DNA of 64,000 nt, from contig NZ_JANFNG010000003.1 in the NCBI RefSeq assembly GCF_024436035.1, positions 124,001-188,000 on the forward strand. Reading direction: 5' to 3'. Below the pieces are notes generated by a model. That model saw nothing but the letters and a program-made list of their open reading frames with translations, was not told the DNA's origin and made no database searches. Origin of the DNA: Streptomyces humicola (GTDB lineage: Bacteria > Actinomycetota > Actinomycetes > Streptomycetales > Streptomycetaceae). The first letter of the stretch is position 1. The number at the start of each line of letters is the position of its first letter. This document shows positions 58,726-63,717 of this stretch, piece by piece. A program made the position numbers and the translations under genes.

Positions 58726-58743
58726 GGCTACTGTTAGTGTGCG
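58726..58743 (+). promoter_or_regulatory. family 2 promoter element, copy 1
   Basis: GGCTACTGTTAGTGTGCG, identical over 18 bases to the element at 62824-62841 (minus strand). GCGATGCGAA stands 13 bases further upstream here and 10 bases upstream at the other copy, so a -35/-10 layout is likely. Confidence 0.6.
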
Positions 58744-58786: not shown

Positions 58787-59203
58787 ATGCGTAAGTTTCA
58801 GCAGGTCGCGGTCGTCGCCGCAGCAGCAGTGGGCGGCCTCTCCACGATCGGAGCCGGCGTCAGCTTCTCCGACGCTCCTCACGTCGGGTACAACGGTGCT
58901 GCCTCGGAGCAGGGCCGGACGGCCATGCAGCCGCACATGGCCGCACCGCAGGCGCAGCTGCCCCCTCCGCAGCAGGGCCCGCTGCTGGCTCCTCAGCTGT
59001 CCCCGCAGTTCGCCCCGGATCTGCAGCCGCAAGTCTCCCCGCAGCTCGCTCCCCCGCGGGAGCAGGACAACCTCTTCCACCCGTACCAGGAGTGCAGTCC
59101 GCAGGCGGTGCTCGAGGCCAACGTCCCGGTCGGCCTGCTCGCCACCCCGGAGACCAACGGCGAAGCCTGCAGTCAGTCGGTCAGCCCCTTCATCCATCAC
59201 TGA
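58787..59203 (+). CDS. secreted Pro/Gln-rich protein, family 2 (MRKFQQ)
   Basis: 138 residues. The signal peptide (MRKFQQVAVVAAAAVGG...) should be cut near SFSDA. The mature part is a Pro/Gln-rich repeat (PQLSPQFAPDLQPQVSPQLAP) followed by a C-terminal part with two cysteines (ECSPQ...EACSQ) around a VPVGLLATPE core. No enzyme motif. Paralogue of the gene at 62201-62764, which lacks the Cys part. First gene of the secreted-protein cluster. Confidence 0.8.
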   Translation: MRKFQQVAVVAAAAVGGLSTIGAGVSFSDAPHVGYNGAASEQGRTAMQPHMAAPQAQLPPPQQGPLLAPQLSPQFAPDLQPQVSPQLAPPREQDNLFHPYQECSPQAVLEANVPVGLLATPETNGEACSQSVSPFIHH

Positions 59204-59247
59204 AGCCATCGGGAGTCGCCGGGAGTCGCCACGCGCGACGCCCACTG

Positions 59248-59281
59248 CGGGCCCTTCGAGTCTCGATCCCCGAAGGGCCCG
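59248..59281 (+). terminator. terminator of the first cluster gene
   Basis: Perfect 11-bp stem CGGGCCCTTCG/CGAAGGGCCCG with a 12-base loop, 45 bases after the stop. The same GGGCCCTTCG core recurs in the terminator at 62097-62142. Confidence 0.8.
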
Positions 59282-59426
59282 TTCATGTGCAGTACAGCCG
59301 AACGGGTTGGTTTCGCCGCCGAGCGTCCGTCGGTTTCCGGCGCGTCGATGCCCCGGGCTGGCCAGGGTGCGGGGCAGGCCCCGGGTCGGGTGATCGCTTG
59401 TAGTGATCTCGCACGGAGGCTCGCCG

Positions 59427-59516
59427 CTGAGCGGCGCGGCGTTTTTCATACTAACGTCCGTTACCGTACGAAGTCGGTCTGTAACAGACCGCATCCGCTC
59501 GACCAACGGAGAAGAC
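59427..59516 (+). promoter_or_regulatory. family 1 leader element, copy A
   Basis: Conserved block: CTGAGCGG..., TTTTTCATACTAAC, CCGTACGAAGTCGG, the inverted repeat CGGTCT (59475-59480)-GTAAC-AGACCG (59486-59491), and ACCAACGGAGAAGA as ribosome site. The repeat ends 25 bases before the ATG, exactly as in copies B and C. Confidence 0.75.
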
Positions 59517-59795
59517 ATGCGCAAGCTTCACAAGGCCGTCGTGGTGGCCACCGTGCTCGGCAGCGTCGCCTTCATCGGTGCCGGCACCGCTTCCGCCGAC
59601 GGCTGGGGGCGTGGCGGCCGCCTCGGCGTCTCGCAGGGCGTCTGGTGTAAATCGCACGACCTGAACCTCGACGTCCTCGGCGAGGTGGGGATCCTGAACG
59701 GCCTGGCGGGCAACCTGATCAATGGCGAGGGCAACCCCGGTGGCCAGGGCACTCACATGGGCTCGTCCATGGGCTGCAGCAACAGCGCCTTCTGA
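59517..59795 (+). CDS. small secreted two-Cys protein, family 1 copy A
   Basis: 92 residues. Signal peptide MRKLHKAVVVATVLGSVAF cut after TASA, leaving a mature protein of about 65 residues: a Gly/Arg start, then CKSHDLNLDVLGEVGILNGL, GNLINGEGNPGGQ and SMGCSN. Two cysteines about 43 residues apart probably form one disulfide. The VGxLNGLxGN core recalls chaplins but the overall text differs. GGAG lies before the ATG. Confidence 0.82.
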   Translation: MRKLHKAVVVATVLGSVAFIGAGTASADGWGRGGRLGVSQGVWCKSHDLNLDVLGEVGILNGLAGNLINGEGNPGGQGTHMGSSMGCSNSAF

Positions 59796-59824
59796 ACGTC
59801 GGGCAGTCAGGTGAGTGATTGAGC

Positions 59825-59868
59825 ATGGGTCCCGGTGTCCGAGCCACGGGCCGGGCGCCGGGGCCCAT
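59825..59868 (+). terminator. terminator of copy A
   Basis: Arms ATGGGTCCCGG (59825-59835) and CCGGGGCCCAT (59858-59868) pair with one G-T pair. The text ATGGGTCCCGGTGTCCGAGCC recurs in the terminator at 63202-63249. Confidence 0.75.
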
Positions 59869-59908
59869 TTCTGACCTTCTTCTGAGCCCGGGCGCGGGTC
59901 GTGTGCAG

Positions 59909-59948
59909 CGTCCGGGCCTTATCACAAACGTCCGGGCCTTATCACAAA
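59909..59948 (+). repeat. 20-bp tandem repeat before the third cluster gene
   Basis: Two identical copies of CGTCCGGGCCTTATCACAAA (59909-59928, 59929-59948), ending 12 bases before the next start codon. The second copy joins the Shine-Dalgarno AAAGGAA. Confidence 0.92.
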
Positions 59949-59960
59949 GGAACGCATCAC

Positions 59961-60344
59961 ATGTTCAGTCGGAACAAGATCGCAGCCGTCCTGGGGCTTC
60001 TGGGCGGCCTCTCCATGACCTGCGTCGGCGTCGCCCAGGCGCACGGCAAAGGGCCGTCGAACGGCTGCAAGCGCGACGGCCAGGGCAACGTCACCTGCGT
60101 CCGGAAGAGCCAGACCATCTACACCACCAAGGACGGCAAGCACATCGTGGTGAAGGTGAAGCAGACGCAGAATTGCTCGACGGCCTCCCGGCACCGCCTG
60201 CTGTGGCCCGGAATCAACATCGGCGGCACTGCGACCTCGACTACGGAGATCGGGCCGAAGATGAGCTGCTCCAACAACCTGCCGCGGAACAACAATGCGT
60301 CGCTGCCCGACGGCCTCACGCTGCCCAGCTTCCTTCTGCCCTGA
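59961..60344 (+). CDS. secreted small cysteine-containing protein
   Basis: 127 residues. Signal peptide MFSRNKIAAVLGLLGGLS... cut near AQA. The mature part has four cysteines (NGCKRD, VTCVRK, QNCSTA, MSCSNN) and a basic stretch with TKDGKHIVVKVKQTQ. Not a member of families 1 or 2; similar secreted proteins occur in Streptomyces without known function. AAAGGAA lies nine bases upstream. Confidence 0.78.
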   Translation: MFSRNKIAAVLGLLGGLSMTCVGVAQAHGKGPSNGCKRDGQGNVTCVRKSQTIYTTKDGKHIVVKVKQTQNCSTASRHRLLWPGINIGGTATSTTEIGPKMSCSNNLPRNNNASLPDGLTLPSFLLP

Positions 60345-60643
60345 ATCCCACACCGTGGTGGCCGCACCGGGTTGAGGCGACTCGGCCTTGATCTGCAGCC
60401 GGAATCGTGAGTGCCCGGCCGACGTGGTCGTCGGCCACACGACCCACGCGCTCAGCTGCGCGCCGACTTCCGCGATCCCCGCATCCGGATCCATTCTCGC
60501 GGCGCGTACCCGGTACACGTGACCGAGCACCGAGGCCCTCCATGTCCGCGCGTACGGCGCGGACTTCCGCATGCCTGCCCTCATCCGCGGCCGGACGCGC
60601 CACGCGAACCGTCCCGGCCCGGGCTCCGGCGAACGTCGAAGAG
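60345..60643. other. gap without a recognisable gene
   Basis: Open frames on both strands are Arg/Pro/Ala-rich, lack Shine-Dalgarno sites and match nothing I know. I see no repeat or hairpin in this part. Confidence 0.5.
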
Positions 60644-60679
60644 CGGGTCCCGGCGCCGCGGCTCGGACACCGGGACCCG
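60644..60679 (-). terminator. terminator of copy B
   Basis: Perfect 10-bp stem CGGGTCCCGG/CCGGGACCCG, starting eight bases after the stop of the minus-strand gene. GCTCGGACACCGGGACCC is shared with the terminator at 63202-63249. Confidence 0.75.
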
Positions 60680-60686
60680 TTCTCCA

Positions 60687-61229
60687 CTACTTACTGAGAG
60701 CCTGGTTGTTGCAGCCTGCGGTCGAGCCCAGGTGAGTGGCCTGCCCGCCAGGGTGACCCTCGCCGTTGAGCGCGTTGCCCAGCAGGCCGTTGGCGATTCC
60801 GACCTCACCGAGGATGTCCAGGTTCAGGTCGTGCGACCTGCACTGGGTGACCTGCTTGACGTCGACGTCGCGACGGCCCTCTTCCCTGCCCCCGTGGCGC
60901 CAGCCGTCGTCGTCCCCCCGACCCCAGTCGTCGTCCTGCCGGCCGTAGGACGGCTGAGCGTAGCCCTGCTGACCGGAGGCCTGCGGACCGTAGGACGGCT
61001 GACCGGAGGCCTGCGGACCGTACATGGGCTGACCATACACGGGCTGAGCGTATGCGGGCTGGGCGTAGGCAGGTTGAGCGTAGACGGGCTGGACGTAGGC
61101 AGGTTGAGCGTAGACCGGCTGGCCGCCATAGGCCGGCGCCCAGCCGTCGGCCGAAGCGGTGCCGGCACCGATGAGGCTGACGCTGCCGATCACGGCGGTC
61201 ATCACGACGGCCTTGTGAAGCTTGCGCAT
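60687..61229 (-). CDS. secreted Tyr-rich repeat protein with two-Cys domain, family 1 copy B
   Basis: 180 residues in three parts: a family 1 signal peptide (MRKLHKAVVMTAVIGSVS... to TASA), about 70 residues of QPVYAQPAY-type repeats plus GPQASGQ repeats and an Asp/Arg/Gly linker, then the two-Cys domain CRSHDLNLDILGEVGIANGL...GNALNGEG...TAGCNN. It joins the features of copies A/C (Cys domain) and E (Tyr repeats) in one chain. Confidence 0.82.
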   Translation of the reverse strand: MRKLHKAVVMTAVIGSVSLIGAGTASADGWAPAYGGQPVYAQPAYVQPVYAQPAYAQPAYAQPVYGQPMYGPQASGQPSYGPQASGQQGYAQPSYGRQDDDWGRGDDDGWRHGGREEGRRDVDVKQVTQCRSHDLNLDILGEVGIANGLLGNALNGEGHPGGQATHLGSTAGCNNQALSK

Positions 61230-61318
61230 TTCTTCTCCGTTGGTTGAGCGAATACGGTCTGTAGTAGACCGACTTCGTACGGTAACGAAAGTTAGTATGA
61301 AAAGCACCGCACCGCTCA
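61230..61318 (-). promoter_or_regulatory. family 1 leader element, copy B
   Basis: Same block as copy A. The inverted repeat is at 61255-61260 and 61266-61271 with loop GTAGT on the plus strand; it stands 25 bases from the start codon. TTTTCATACTAAC and CTGAGCGGTGCGGTG lie upstream. Confidence 0.75.
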
Positions 61319-61450
61319 GCGGCGCGCCCTGCCGCAGGGCAAACTGCGAACGGGTTACCCGGCCGGAGAATGCCCGTATCCCGGTCGGTCTGGGGCATTG
61401 ACGCGAGGTGCTGGACCGCGAAATCAACCCGTTCGGCTGTCGTGCAGATG
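61319..61450. other. intergenic repeat unit, copy B-C
   Basis: No gene. GAATGCCC, GGTCxGG, GGGCAT and ACCCGTTCGGCTGT segments recur in the same order at 62005-62100 and, inverted, at 59285-59400. This shows the spacers were duplicated along with the genes. Confidence 0.6.
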
Positions 61451-61487
61451 CATGGGCCCCTCGGGGGGCCATCCCGAAGGACCCATG
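61451..61487 (-). terminator. terminator of copy C
   Basis: CATGGGCCCCTCGGG (61451-61465) pairs with CCCGAAGGACCCATG (61473-61487) at 13 of 15 positions, 90 bases after the stop. A second GGxCCCGG-type hairpin at about 61504-61544 is closer and related to the other cluster terminators. Confidence 0.65.
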
Positions 61488-61577
61488 GAAGAGGCCGAAG
61501 AATGGGCCCCGGCGCCGGGCCTTGCGGCTCGGACATCGGGACCCACTTCTCGTTGTCTATTTCGACTATGTGTGGCC

Positions 61578-61868
61578 CTACTTGCCGAAGGCGCTGTTGT
61601 TGCAGCCCATGGACGAGCCCAACGAGCTTGCCTGTGCACCCGGGTTGCCCTCGCCGTTGAGCGCGTTGCCCGCCAGGCCGTTCAGGAGCCCGACCTCGCC
61701 GAGGACGTCAAGGTTAAGGTCGTGCGACTTGCACTGGGCGCTCTGCGAGACGCCGAGCTCGCCGAACCCCCCGCCGCCCCAGCCGTCGGCGGAAGCGGTG
61801 CCGGCACCGAGGAAGCCGACGCTGCCGATCACGGCGGTCATCACGACGGCCTTGTGAAGCTTGCGCAT
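61578..61868 (-). CDS. small secreted two-Cys protein, family 1 copy C
   Basis: 96 residues; closest to copy A. Signal peptide to TASA, short GWGGGGFGELGVSQS start, then CKSHDLNLDVLGEVGLLNGL, GNALNGEGNPGAQ and SMGCNN. Conserved core residues are nearly identical to A and B. Confidence 0.83.
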   Translation of the reverse strand: MRKLHKAVVMTAVIGSVGFLGAGTASADGWGGGGFGELGVSQSAQCKSHDLNLDVLGEVGLLNGLAGNALNGEGNPGAQASSLGSSMGCNNSAFGK

Positions 61869-61957
61869 TTCTTCTCCGTTGGTTGAGCGGATGCGGTCTG
61901 TAATAGACCGACTTCATACAGTTATAGAAGCTAGTATGAAAAGTGCCGCACCGCTCA
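61869..61957 (-). promoter_or_regulatory. family 1 leader element, copy C
   Basis: Inverted repeat at 61894-61899 and 61905-61910 with loop GTAAT on the plus strand, 25 bases from the start. TTTTCATACTAGC and CTGAGCGGTGCGGCAC upstream as in copies A and B. Confidence 0.75.
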
Positions 61958-62096
61958 GAGGCGCGCTCCGGTGAAGAACCACTGCGGGCAATGAGGTGGT
62001 CGGGGGAATGCCCCGCATCCTGGTCAGGGCCGGGCATCGACGCGCTGGAACAGTCCAAGACCCTTCGTGGAGAACAACCCGTTCGGCTGTAGTGCA

Positions 62097-62142
62097 CATG
62101 CATGGGCCCTTCGGGGGTTGATTCCCGAAGGGCCCATGCATG
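62097..62142 (-). terminator. long perfect-stem terminator of the family 2 gene
   Basis: 19-bp perfect inverted repeat (62097-62115, 62124-62142) with loop GGTTGATT, 58 bases after the stop. Confidence 0.85.
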
Positions 62143-62200
62143 AGCGTCTCCTGAGGTGGCGTCGGACTCGAGGCTCCGGCGTGCCCGGCTGCCGGTCGGC

Positions 62201-62764
62201 CTATGGGGCGACCTGCGGTGACAGCTGCGGGGAGAACTGGCCGCCCAGATTCGGGGCCACCTGCGGGACGAACTGGGGGGCCACCTGCGGTACCAGTTCC
62301 GGGAGCCACCGCGGAGCGGCCACCTGCGGGGCCACCTGGGGCGCCACCTGCGGGACAACCTGCGGGACGACCTGGGGAACAACCTGCGACGGCGGTGCCG
62401 TTTCCGTCTGATACCCCACCGCCTGGGGCTGGGGCGCCATTTGCGGCTGAGGGGCCATCTGCGGCTGGTATCCCACCGGCTGCGGCTGAGGGGCCATCTG
62501 CGGTGGTGGTGCCATCTGTGGCTGAGGGGCCATCATCTGTGGCTGAGGGGCCATCATCTGCGGTTGGGGCGCCATCTGCGGCTGGTACCCCATCCCCTGT
62601 GGCTGATACCCCATCGGCTGTGGCTGAGGGGCCATCTGCTCCGGAGCGTAGCCGTTGTATGCGACGGGGGGAGGAGCGTCGGCGAAGGCGACGCCGGCAC
62701 CGATGGTGGACAGACCGCCTACCGCTGCTGCGGCGACGGCTGCGACCTGCTGAAGCTTGCGCAT
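62201..62764 (-). CDS. secreted Pro/Gln/Met-rich repeat protein, family 2 (MRKLQQ)
   Basis: 187 residues. Signal peptide MRKLQQVAAVAAAAVGG... cut near AFADA. The rest is low-complexity: YQPQGM, MAPQPQMM and many PQVAP units, ending in SPQLSPQVAP. Unlike its paralogue at 58787 it has no C-terminal Cys part and no cysteine. It should be disordered or polyproline-rich outside the cell. Confidence 0.8.
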   Translation of the reverse strand: MRKLQQVAAVAAAAVGGLSTIGAGVAFADAPPPVAYNGYAPEQMAPQPQPMGYQPQGMGYQPQMAPQPQMMAPQPQMMAPQPQMAPPPQMAPQPQPVGYQPQMAPQPQMAPQPQAVGYQTETAPPSQVVPQVVPQVVPQVAPQVAPQVAAPRWLPELVPQVAPQFVPQVAPNLGGQFSPQLSPQVAP

Positions 62765-62823
62765 GGAACCCCTGGTCCTTCACTCACATGTATGCGGAGG
62801 TGTGATTACTTATTGCGAGCTTA

Positions 62824-62841
62824 CGCACACTAACAGTAGCC
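62824..62841 (-). promoter_or_regulatory. family 2 promoter element, copy 2
   Basis: Exact 18-base match, on the minus strand, to the element at 58726-58743, with GCGATGCGAA again upstream. It starts 59 bases before the gene. Confidence 0.6.
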
Positions 62842-63201
62842 GAAGGCGCGATTCGCATCGCCGTGCGCCCCGTGTTGGGCTACAGCGGAAGCCTCCCGCG
62901 GGCCCGCGTCAGCACTCGCTGCGCTGTCCTCCAACGCCGCGCAAAGCCGAACGGCGGACCCCATCGCCTCTCCTCTGGTCTTTCCAACAGCACGTTTGCC
63001 GACGTGGCCTGTCAGTGGCCGCCGAGGGCCGCCCCTGACGCCGGGGGGAGCGCCTTTCCGCCGGTGGCGGTCCACGGACTGATCGCCATCCCCTCCCCCA
63101 ACCCAACGACCCACCTCCGGACCGGTCACGGGAGCCGTTGCACGGCACCCGTTTCGGTGGAGACGGTCCGCCCCGCGTCCGGTCCTGAAAGAGGGTCGAA
63201 G
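62842..63201. other. 360-base gap without a recognisable gene
   Basis: Open frames exist on both strands but lack ribosome sites and recognisable products. I see no repeat shared with the rest of the cluster. Confidence 0.5.
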
Positions 63202-63249
63202 AATGGGTCCCGGTGTCCGAGCCGCAAGGCTCGGACACCGGGACCCATT
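63202..63249. terminator. 22-bp perfect-stem terminator
   Basis: Arms 63202-63223 and 63228-63249 pair without mismatch around a GCAA tetraloop. Carries the GGGTCCCGGTGTCCGAGCC text found, in decayed form, behind copies A, B and C. It follows the minus-strand copy E gene by 80 bases. Confidence 0.9.
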
Positions 63250-63329
63250 TCTCGATCACCTGTTTCGACTGCCGGAGGCGGGTCGCTCTCGCCGTTGTCT
63301 GCCGCCGCCCGGCGCGCCGTGACCGTCGG

Positions 63330-63650
63330 TCAGCGGTACATCGGCGGGCCGTAGACGGGCTGGCCGTAGCCGTACATCGGCGGGCCGTAGGCGGGCTGGC
63401 TGTAGCTGTAGACCGGCTGGCTGTAGCTGTAGGCGGGCTGGCTGTAGCTGTAGACCGGCTGGCTGTAGCTGTAGGCGGGCTGGCTGTAGCTGTAGACCGG
63501 CTGGCTGTAGCCGTACACGGGCTGGCTGTAGCCGTACACGGGCTGGCCATAGACCGGCGCCCAGCCGTCGGCGGAAGCGGTGCCGGCACCGATGAAGCCG
63601 ACACTGCCGAGCGTCGCGGCCACGACGACGGCCTTTTGAAGCTTGCGCAT
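63330..63650 (-). CDS. secreted Tyr-rich repeat protein, family 1 copy E
   Basis: 106 residues. Family 1 signal peptide (MRKLQKAVVVAATLGSVGF to TASA, then DGWAPVYG), followed by about nine QPVYGYS/QPVYSYS/QPAYSYS repeats and a PPMYGYG ending. No cysteine and no two-Cys domain. Tyrosine makes up about a quarter of the mature chain. Confidence 0.82.
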   Translation of the reverse strand: MRKLQKAVVVAATLGSVGFIGAGTASADGWAPVYGQPVYGYSQPVYGYSQPVYSYSQPAYSYSQPVYSYSQPAYSYSQPVYSYSQPAYGPPMYGYGQPVYGPPMYR

Positions 63651-63717
63651 TTCTTCTCCCATTGATTGAGTGCGAAGCGGTCTGCAATAGACCGACTTCG
63701 TACGGTTATGGAAGTTA
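63651..63717 (-). promoter_or_regulatory. family 1 leader element, copy E (diverged)
   Basis: Inverted repeat at 63678-63683 and 63689-63694 with loop GCAAT on the plus strand, 27 bases from the start. CCGTACGAAGTCGG is kept; the TTTTCATACT part is lost. Confidence 0.68.

Follow-up and report, generated by a model that had tools for sequence, protein, structure and literature searches.

A cluster of seven small exported proteins

The window analysed here is a 64,000-nucleotide stretch (G000:C33:124001-188000) of the 7.07 Mb genome of Streptomyces humicola. Between its positions 58787 and 63650 lie seven small open reading frames (ORFs), genes A to G, each with a Sec-type leader as judged by eye. 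The initial annotation had described this region as some 5 kb of small exported proteins in two paralogous families plus one more, free of any enzyme, regulator or transporter gene. All seven ORFs were confirmed, and the ORF list of the window places no gene of those three kinds between them. An eighth family-1 gene lies just past the window end (G000:C33:188777-189058), and two further family-1 paralogues are found elsewhere in the genome, on contigs C28 and C76.

Four of the proteins (B, D, E and G) share a nearly identical leader, MRKL[HQ]KAVV...GAGTASADGW, which we call the family-1 leader. What follows it varies in the mix-and-match fashion originally noticed: B and E have only a two-Cys (SHDLN) core, D joins Tyr/Gln-Pro repeats and a charged linker to the core, and G consists of Tyr-rich repeats, with 20 Tyr past the leader and no core. 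Genes A and F have a second leader in common (family 2). The A protein ends in a different two-Cys domain (YQECSPQ...C), whereas F lacks this domain and carries long Pro/Gln/Met repeats with no Cys domain at all. Protein C, with four Cys, belongs to a third secreted family, homologues of which occur inside the corresponding clusters of relatives. The pattern is more than chance: family-1 members, 45 from a wide range of species, can be aligned with positions that never vary, and upstream DNA is common to the paralogues.

A conserved two-Cys core

The family-1 core comprises 44 residues, CxSHDxNxDxLGxVGxxNGxxGNxLNGEGxxGxQxxxxGSxxGC. In the alignment of the 45 members, the invariant residues include L56, G57, G72, G74 and G84, none of which was required at selection; C, N and in part H were. 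A larger set of 157 distinct cores, picked by a pattern requiring C, HD, N and the last C, gave a similar picture. Five further residues (L, G, G, G and G) never vary, E and Q vary once each, and the second D of the C-H-D-N-D run, likewise not required by the pattern, is present in 151 of the 157. Both Cys are found in 160 of 162 cores. A single core, apparently frameshifted in the assembly, has only one of them, and the C76 paralogue has neither. Such co-variation of the two Cys fits, without proving, a disulphide between them. The C76 paralogue (L095:5541-5822) has also lost the His of the core but keeps the Gly/Asn-rich part, and its upstream element is degraded; it is perhaps decaying or changed in role.

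Purifying selection had been proposed as a check on the cluster. The ratio of nonsynonymous to synonymous substitution rates (dN/dS), calculated by NG86 over 8876 non-independent pairs in which orthologues and paralogues are mixed, had a median of 0.67 and was below 1 for 7941 pairs; it was 0.76 for the mature part and 0.51 for the leader. Differences at the three codon positions were 0.218, 0.147 and 0.233. These ratios are unreliable because the 95% G+C at third positions compresses dS, and the median decides neither way. Across the 157 cores, by comparison, the codons of the invariant residues change synonymously. Constraint on the core can be argued from this, because these residues vary only synonymously.

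The proteins lack a known family model

Scans of the seven window proteins against Pfam and NCBIfam returned no model at its curated cut-off, and the listed matches were weak. The best of them were low-complexity matches in D: Extensin_1 (E 0.0097, 16 bits versus a cut-off of 105) and PRK07764 (E 0.0011, 17 versus 1670). The chaplin model (PF03777) matched none of the seven. Nor did the NCBIfam scan of the window proteins yield a rodlin name, although whether NCBIfam holds a rodlin model was not established. With Pfam, 27 core sequences gave 0 families at E ≤ 1 in 27 of 27 cases, and the core profile found no match among Protein Data Bank (PDB) sequences at E ≤ 1. No support emerged for a common origin of the family-1 core and the C-terminal domain of family 2, nor for one of that domain and chaplins. 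We also considered the spore-associated proteins of plasmid SCP1 (SapC/D/E); a plasmid tblastn matched only three Streptomyces megaplasmids, the presence of SCP1 in the collection being unchecked, and this candidate was set aside.

AlphaFold predicted no confident fold for E (A1; mean pLDDT 52.4, pTM 0.22). For the family of gene C (A6; mean pLDDT 61.2, pTM 0.35) it gave only poorly supported central strands. A keyword search of the open-access literature, which leaves subscription journals mostly outside, turned up no publication that we recognised as describing family 1. Within that incomplete coverage, the claim that no published system has this make-up is uncontradicted. By sequence, then, this is a real and conserved set of protein families without a Pfam or NCBIfam model.

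A shared upstream element ending in a hairpin

The pattern GTAHGAAGTCGNNCTNNNNCAGANCGC, allowing at most one mismatch, occurs at six sites genome-wide, each 5' of a family-1 gene. Seven more matches have three mismatches, and the reversed control gave 0. The C76 paralogue carries the GTAHGAAGTCGNNCTNNNNCAGANCGC element in degraded form. Genes B, D and E thus each combine leader, two-Cys SHD core and upstream element, while G has leader and element without the core. A distinct element, GGCTACTGTTAGTGTGCG, precedes the family-2 genes A and F, and a stretch resembling it also precedes family-2 genes of relatives.

The family-1 element ends in a short stem. In an alignment of 63 selected upstreams, 97.1% of cells are paired; three of the six pairs have changed on both sides, giving 23 double-changed cells versus 6.7 in shuffles, and sliding the pairing partners destroys the signal. 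The 63 comprise 60 taken from the 108 non-redundant upstreams that had passed a GATC/GGTC-type filter, plus three added (D, G and the sister-species gene described below). Upstreams resembling other subfamilies, or without the element, were left out by eye, and the selection leans towards the stem. In the unselected set, a perfect stem of at least 5 bp is present in 114 of 162 upstreams, versus 19% in shuffles. The hairpin could form at the 5' end of the mRNA, or the repeat could be a symmetric operator. A comparison with known RNA families gave three matches, all far below gathering scores.

Two other signals were considered. An inverted repeat, TTCGTA/TACGAA, lies around the presumed -10 region, with the second arm in 51 of 162 upstreams (22 of these 51 match 6 or 7 of 7 positions at spacing 14-15); it is suggestive only and was not used. 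In the literature, developmental expression of chaplins is BldN/MtrA-dependent. The motif TCGTTGG, a short stand-in for a BldN-like site, is present in 1 of 162 family-1 upstreams and with 3 of 22 chaplin ORFs, one of these three matches apparently lying inside a coding stretch; against 1% of random windows, these counts are too weak to decide.

Table 1. Genes and sequence features of the cluster (window coordinates)
Feature	Position	Strand	Description
Gene A	58787..59203	+	Family 2: leader, Pro/Gln-rich linker, C-terminal two-Cys domain YQECSPQ...C (domain family aligned)
Gene B	59517..59795	+	Family 1: leader and two-Cys (SHDLN) domain
Gene C	59961..60344	+	Family 3: four-Cys secreted protein
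Gene D	60687..61229	-	Family 1: leader, Tyr/Gln-Pro repeats, charged linker, two-Cys domain
Gene E	61578..61868	-	Family 1: leader and two-Cys domain; query for searches
Gene F	62201..62764	-	Family-2 leader, long Pro/Gln/Met repeats, no Cys domain
Gene G	63330..63650	-	Family-1 leader, Tyr-rich repeats only
Upstream element, gene B	59466..59492	+	Family 1, with hairpin
Upstream element, gene D	61254..61280	-	Family 1, with hairpin
Upstream element, gene E	61893..61919	-	Family 1, with hairpin
Upstream element, gene G	63677..63703	-	Family 1, with hairpin
Upstream element, gene A	58726..58743	+	Family 2, GGCTACTGTTAGTGTGCG; read from sequence
Upstream element, gene F	62824..62841	-	Family 2, GGCTACTGTTAGTGTGCG; read from sequence
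Inverted repeat	62094..62145	.	Between E and F; putative terminator
Inverted repeat	63196..63255	.	75 bp beyond the G stop; putative terminator

The cluster is conserved in a minority of Streptomyces species

A scan with one genome per species returned 159 relatives, the best 80 of which were kept, corresponding to 79 loci. These best 80 are all titled Streptomyces except for one Streptacidiphilus and one Actinacidiphila, and S. viridochromogenes, S. glaucescens and S. noursei are among the carriers. The 45-member profile hit 49 of 199 Streptomyces genomes at E ≤ 0.001, and in 27 of these the E value fell below 1e-30. Matches were also obtained in 5 of 61 relatives and in 5 of 296 genomes across the phylum, strong in both cases only for the S. 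humicola genome and the same one Streptomyces. Several carriers have 4-14 family-1 paralogue matches per genome (E ≤ 1e-3). In the weak matches the similarity lies mostly in the leader; the mature portions belong to other secreted proteins, several of them with two Cys and some in tandem arrays. Examples of such arrays of small secreted two-Cys proteins in Streptomyces are L111, L123, L128 and L131 (G085:C6:229278-230992) and L121, L127, L129, L132 and L134 (G234:C14), where the leader is similar to that of family 1 and the core is absent. They possibly represent a wider class of leader-sharing surface proteins.

Gene order was compared over 48 multi-gene loci, hand-picked among the 79 and annotated with crude scripts for gene calling and leader filtering. 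In 44 of the 48, a family-1 gene comes next after a family-2C gene in the same orientation; in 36 there are two such family-1 genes, and 32 show the order 1- 2n- 2c+ 1+. The main block holds a median of 8 secreted genes (range 3-12). Under a slightly stricter leader filter, families 1, 2C and 3 occur together in 43 of 49 loci including the window. Large non-secreted ORFs lie inside the block at a few loci (L014, 362 aa; L019, 470 aa; L029, 352 aa). As a rule, with these exceptions, the cluster is all-secreted.

The flanks vary. Pfam scans of representatives only placed a ketosynthase at 14 loci, a WS/DGAT-type acyltransferase at 14, an ABC ATPase at 11 and a tyrosinase-type gene at 8; a second acyltransferase-like gene, at 22 loci, is our own reading and was not scanned. 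An alpha/beta hydrolase neighbour is common to the window and 5 relatives. At 14 loci (L041:41-4139 and equivalents) the WS/DGAT-type acyltransferase and the ketosynthase adjoin the cluster, and at least 5 loci also have an acyl-carrier protein; a lipid product tied to the coat proposed below is conceivable. The tyrosinase-type gene, assigned by Pfam on one representative, lies near the cluster at 8 of 49 fetched loci, L039:11456-12424 among them. We considered tyrosinase cross-linking of the Tyr repeats and rejected it as a general rule: strong repeats occur at 3 of 49 loci including the window, and L039 alone has both.

Genomic links to chaplins

The initial annotation had likened the VGxLNGLxGN stretch of the core to chaplins. 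As a 14-column motif the likeness holds: hhalign pairs LGEVGilnGl.GN of the core with vnvVGxLNPAfGN of the chaplin domain (P 0.0034). Homology is not supported, with an hhalign probability of 9.4% and no Pfam match among the 27 cores. On this sequence evidence the likeness is a common motif and not demonstrated homology.

A different kind of link came from a sister species (G001), the only other same-genus genome searched (96% complete, 410 contigs). The profile matches just one gene there at E ≤ 0.01, and in it the family-1 leader is joined to a chaplin mature part; other family-1 genes are likely absent from this genome. The flanks of this chimera are those of the window cluster, at 85-91% identity on both sides. 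A 258-bp segment covering its upstream region and leader matches three window paralogues over the full length (76.8-77.6%). Its mature part matches, over 158 bp at 87%, the S. humicola chaplin on contig C13, which has a different leader. The syntenic flanks and the match in leader and upstream region indicate that the two species use the same control-and-export unit at one locus, joined to a family-1 core in S. humicola and to a chaplin domain in its sister. The chimera is probably the derived state and the cluster the older one, because the window shares its hydrolase neighbour with the clusters of relatives.

Other genes at this locus can be mentioned here. In the sister species, the interval from the chimera to the next shared gene contains a 225-residue Gly-rich, secreted-looking ORF on the minus strand (L142:6185-8078). 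Beyond the window cluster (L094:3421-4357) and beside the chimera are genes resembling those for a nickel superoxide dismutase and its processing peptidase.

Chaplin genes also lie near family-1 genes. In S. humicola, a chaplin is found 1.3 kb from the C28 paralogue (L096:6089-6787), whose product combines Tyr repeats and the two-Cys core with a long stretch rich in His, Arg and Tyr. Long two-domain chaplins are present inside 11 of 48 multi-gene loci versus 0 of 31 other fetched loci, most of the 11 being of one syntenic type and hence non-independent. Among nine genomes picked for contiguity from the 27 strong carriers, a chaplin occurs within 5 kb at 3 of 9 multi-gene loci (distances 0.5, 0.7 and 1.8 kb) and at 0 of 28 single-gene loci. 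Circular shifts gave a mean of 0.15 genomes (P 0.00045 for three or more, with relatedness ignored).

Comparison with known surface systems

Published descriptions of the Streptomyces exoskeleton, of which we draw on excerpts throughout this section, name chaplins, rodlins and SapB-like peptides, together with Sti-like proteins cross-linked by transglutaminase (PMC4255298). Further excerpts treat rodlins and amyloid (PMC5314377), MtrA and chaplin expression (PMC5650626) and the chaplins and rodlin of S. natalensis (PMC4530454).

Chaplins (PF03777, ChpA-C) resemble the present proteins in being small and exported, with several paralogues per Streptomyces genome and a Gly/Asn/Val-rich two-Cys domain. 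They also have the local VGxLNxxxGN motif, share a genome neighbourhood with family 1 in some species, and have swapped mature parts with it in the natural chimera. Yet their profile has no detectable homology with the family-1 core. The Cys pair brackets the whole 44-residue core in family 1, whereas in the chaplin domains seen here the two Cys are ∼17-18 residues apart. The invariant SHD..N motif of family 1 is absent from chaplins, and the upstream elements differ. Chaplins are further characterised by amyloid-like self-assembly at the air-water interface. Long chaplins have two chaplin domains with a C-terminal sorting signal and membrane anchor; by inspection, none of the seven window proteins has such a C-terminus.

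Rodlins (RdlA/RdlB) are likewise small secreted surface-layer proteins of Streptomyces, patchy and readily lost (PMC5314377, PMC4255298), but the excerpts give them 131-133 residues and do not describe them as a large mixed cluster; their comparison with the window proteins is by description only. No rodlin could be named among the small secreted ORFs near the chaplins of S. humicola. SapB-like peptides are also secreted, surface-active products of Streptomyces (PMC5650626, PMC4255298), but SapB is a processed oligopeptide with a neighbouring processing gene (PMC4255298), and no such gene was seen in the window set. The surface proteins that serve as transglutaminase substrates are secreted, Gln-rich and built into aerial hyphae (PMC4255298), and F is Pro/Gln-rich. 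A link between the two is speculation.

A candidate envelope coat and its alternatives

We favour, at a rough probability of 0.58, the reading that these are small exported structural coat proteins of the streptomycete cell envelope, chaplin-like in action but not chaplins. A structural or coating role had been proposed from the motif likeness. It is the best-supported reading, though not for that reason: it rests on the chimera of leader and chaplin, the chaplin near the C28 paralogue, and the chaplins beside the clusters of some relatives. The conserved clusters of secreted genes, the upstream element with its covarying hairpin and the paired Cys also speak for it. Each protein would leave the cell by the Sec route, directed by its shared leader. 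The 44-residue core, with one probable disulphide closing it, would then assemble extracellularly into a coat. In that coat the Tyr-rich and Pro/Gln-rich repeat proteins D, F and G would serve as filler, either flexible or open to cross-linking, and A and C, which are also Cys-paired, as partners. Family-1 genes would be turned on jointly through their common upstream element and its 5' hairpin, without dependence on the usual chaplin genes. Beyond export and co-regulation this mechanism is one that we infer, and for the window proteins that includes assembly, location in a coat, timing, the disulphide and the role of the repeats.

Several observations weigh against a coat. Family 1 is missing from most sampled Streptomyces and so is not essential for aerial growth in the genus. 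Homology of the core to chaplins is supported by neither hhalign nor Pfam. Six of the nine contiguous genomes and all 28 single-gene loci have no chaplin nearby; the positive cases come from few lineages, so the proximity P-value overstates independence. The dN/dS values, especially for the mature part, are high, a point that is weak by itself. The low AlphaFold confidence for E fits either disorder or assembly and shows neither. Finally, the conserved C-H-D-N-D run could also mean metal binding.

That last point leads to an alternative in which the core binds a metal or other ligand through Cys-x-x-His-Asp-x-Asn-x-Asp and the cluster works in extracellular scavenging or sensing. C, H, D, N and D are indeed conserved; C, HD, N and the last C were imposed by the selection pattern, but the second D was not, and the gene resembling that for a nickel superoxide dismutase lies a few genes away. 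However, the C76 paralogue replaces both Cys and the His but leaves the remainder of the core intact, conservation is just as high in the Gly/Asn-rich second half, and the window set includes no transporter or receptor gene. We consider this alternative quite improbable. We think it similarly improbable that the proteins are secreted, bacteriocin-like antibacterial peptides, made in several versions to kill competitors. Small, exported, Cys-paired and Gly/Asn-rich proteins with many paralogues per genome would suit that role. Competitor-directed peptides usually diversify, however, whereas this core is near-uniform across species. No immunity, modification or peptide-export gene was seen in the window set, the inserts in relatives' clusters are not of those types, and neither the repeat-only proteins F and G nor the chaplin chimera fits.

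An alternative closer to the coat reading is a matrix or adhesion system of the vegetative mycelium, acting in surface attachment or hyphal aggregation and not on aerial hyphae or spores. Tyr-rich and Pro/Gln-rich repeats are common in matrix proteins, the patchy species range suits an ecological trait, and the upstream element is distinct, being seen 5' of none of the chaplins examined except the chimera. The chimera itself and the chaplin proximity argue the other way, and we consider such a system unlikely. It overlaps with a coat, since some chaplins also serve attachment (an excerpt of PMC4255298).

Going further than a coat of this kind, one can tentatively propose a second, independently regulated exoskeletal system of the Streptomycetaceae, parallel to chaplins and rodlins. 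It may comprise a conserved cluster of up to ∼9-12 secreted genes. One promoter-hairpin-leader cassette would be used repeatedly in front of exchangeable mature parts, be it the two-Cys core, Tyr repeats or even a chaplin domain, and the make-up of the surface would thus evolve by swaps of the mature half behind a fixed control-and-export unit. This broader proposal is possible, but we hold it with less than even confidence.

Implications

Streptomyces surface biology has so far rested on chaplins, rodlins and SapB. About one in seven of the sampled Streptomyces species (27 of 199) carry the present set, which, if the coat reading is true, would be a missing layer of the hyphal or spore envelope. 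It would then account for differences between species in the texture, wettability and adhesion of their surfaces. The core, short and almost invariant, is also a candidate self-assembling material. The chimera shows which control region a chaplin can sit under, and it makes mutual replacement of the two kinds of protein testable.

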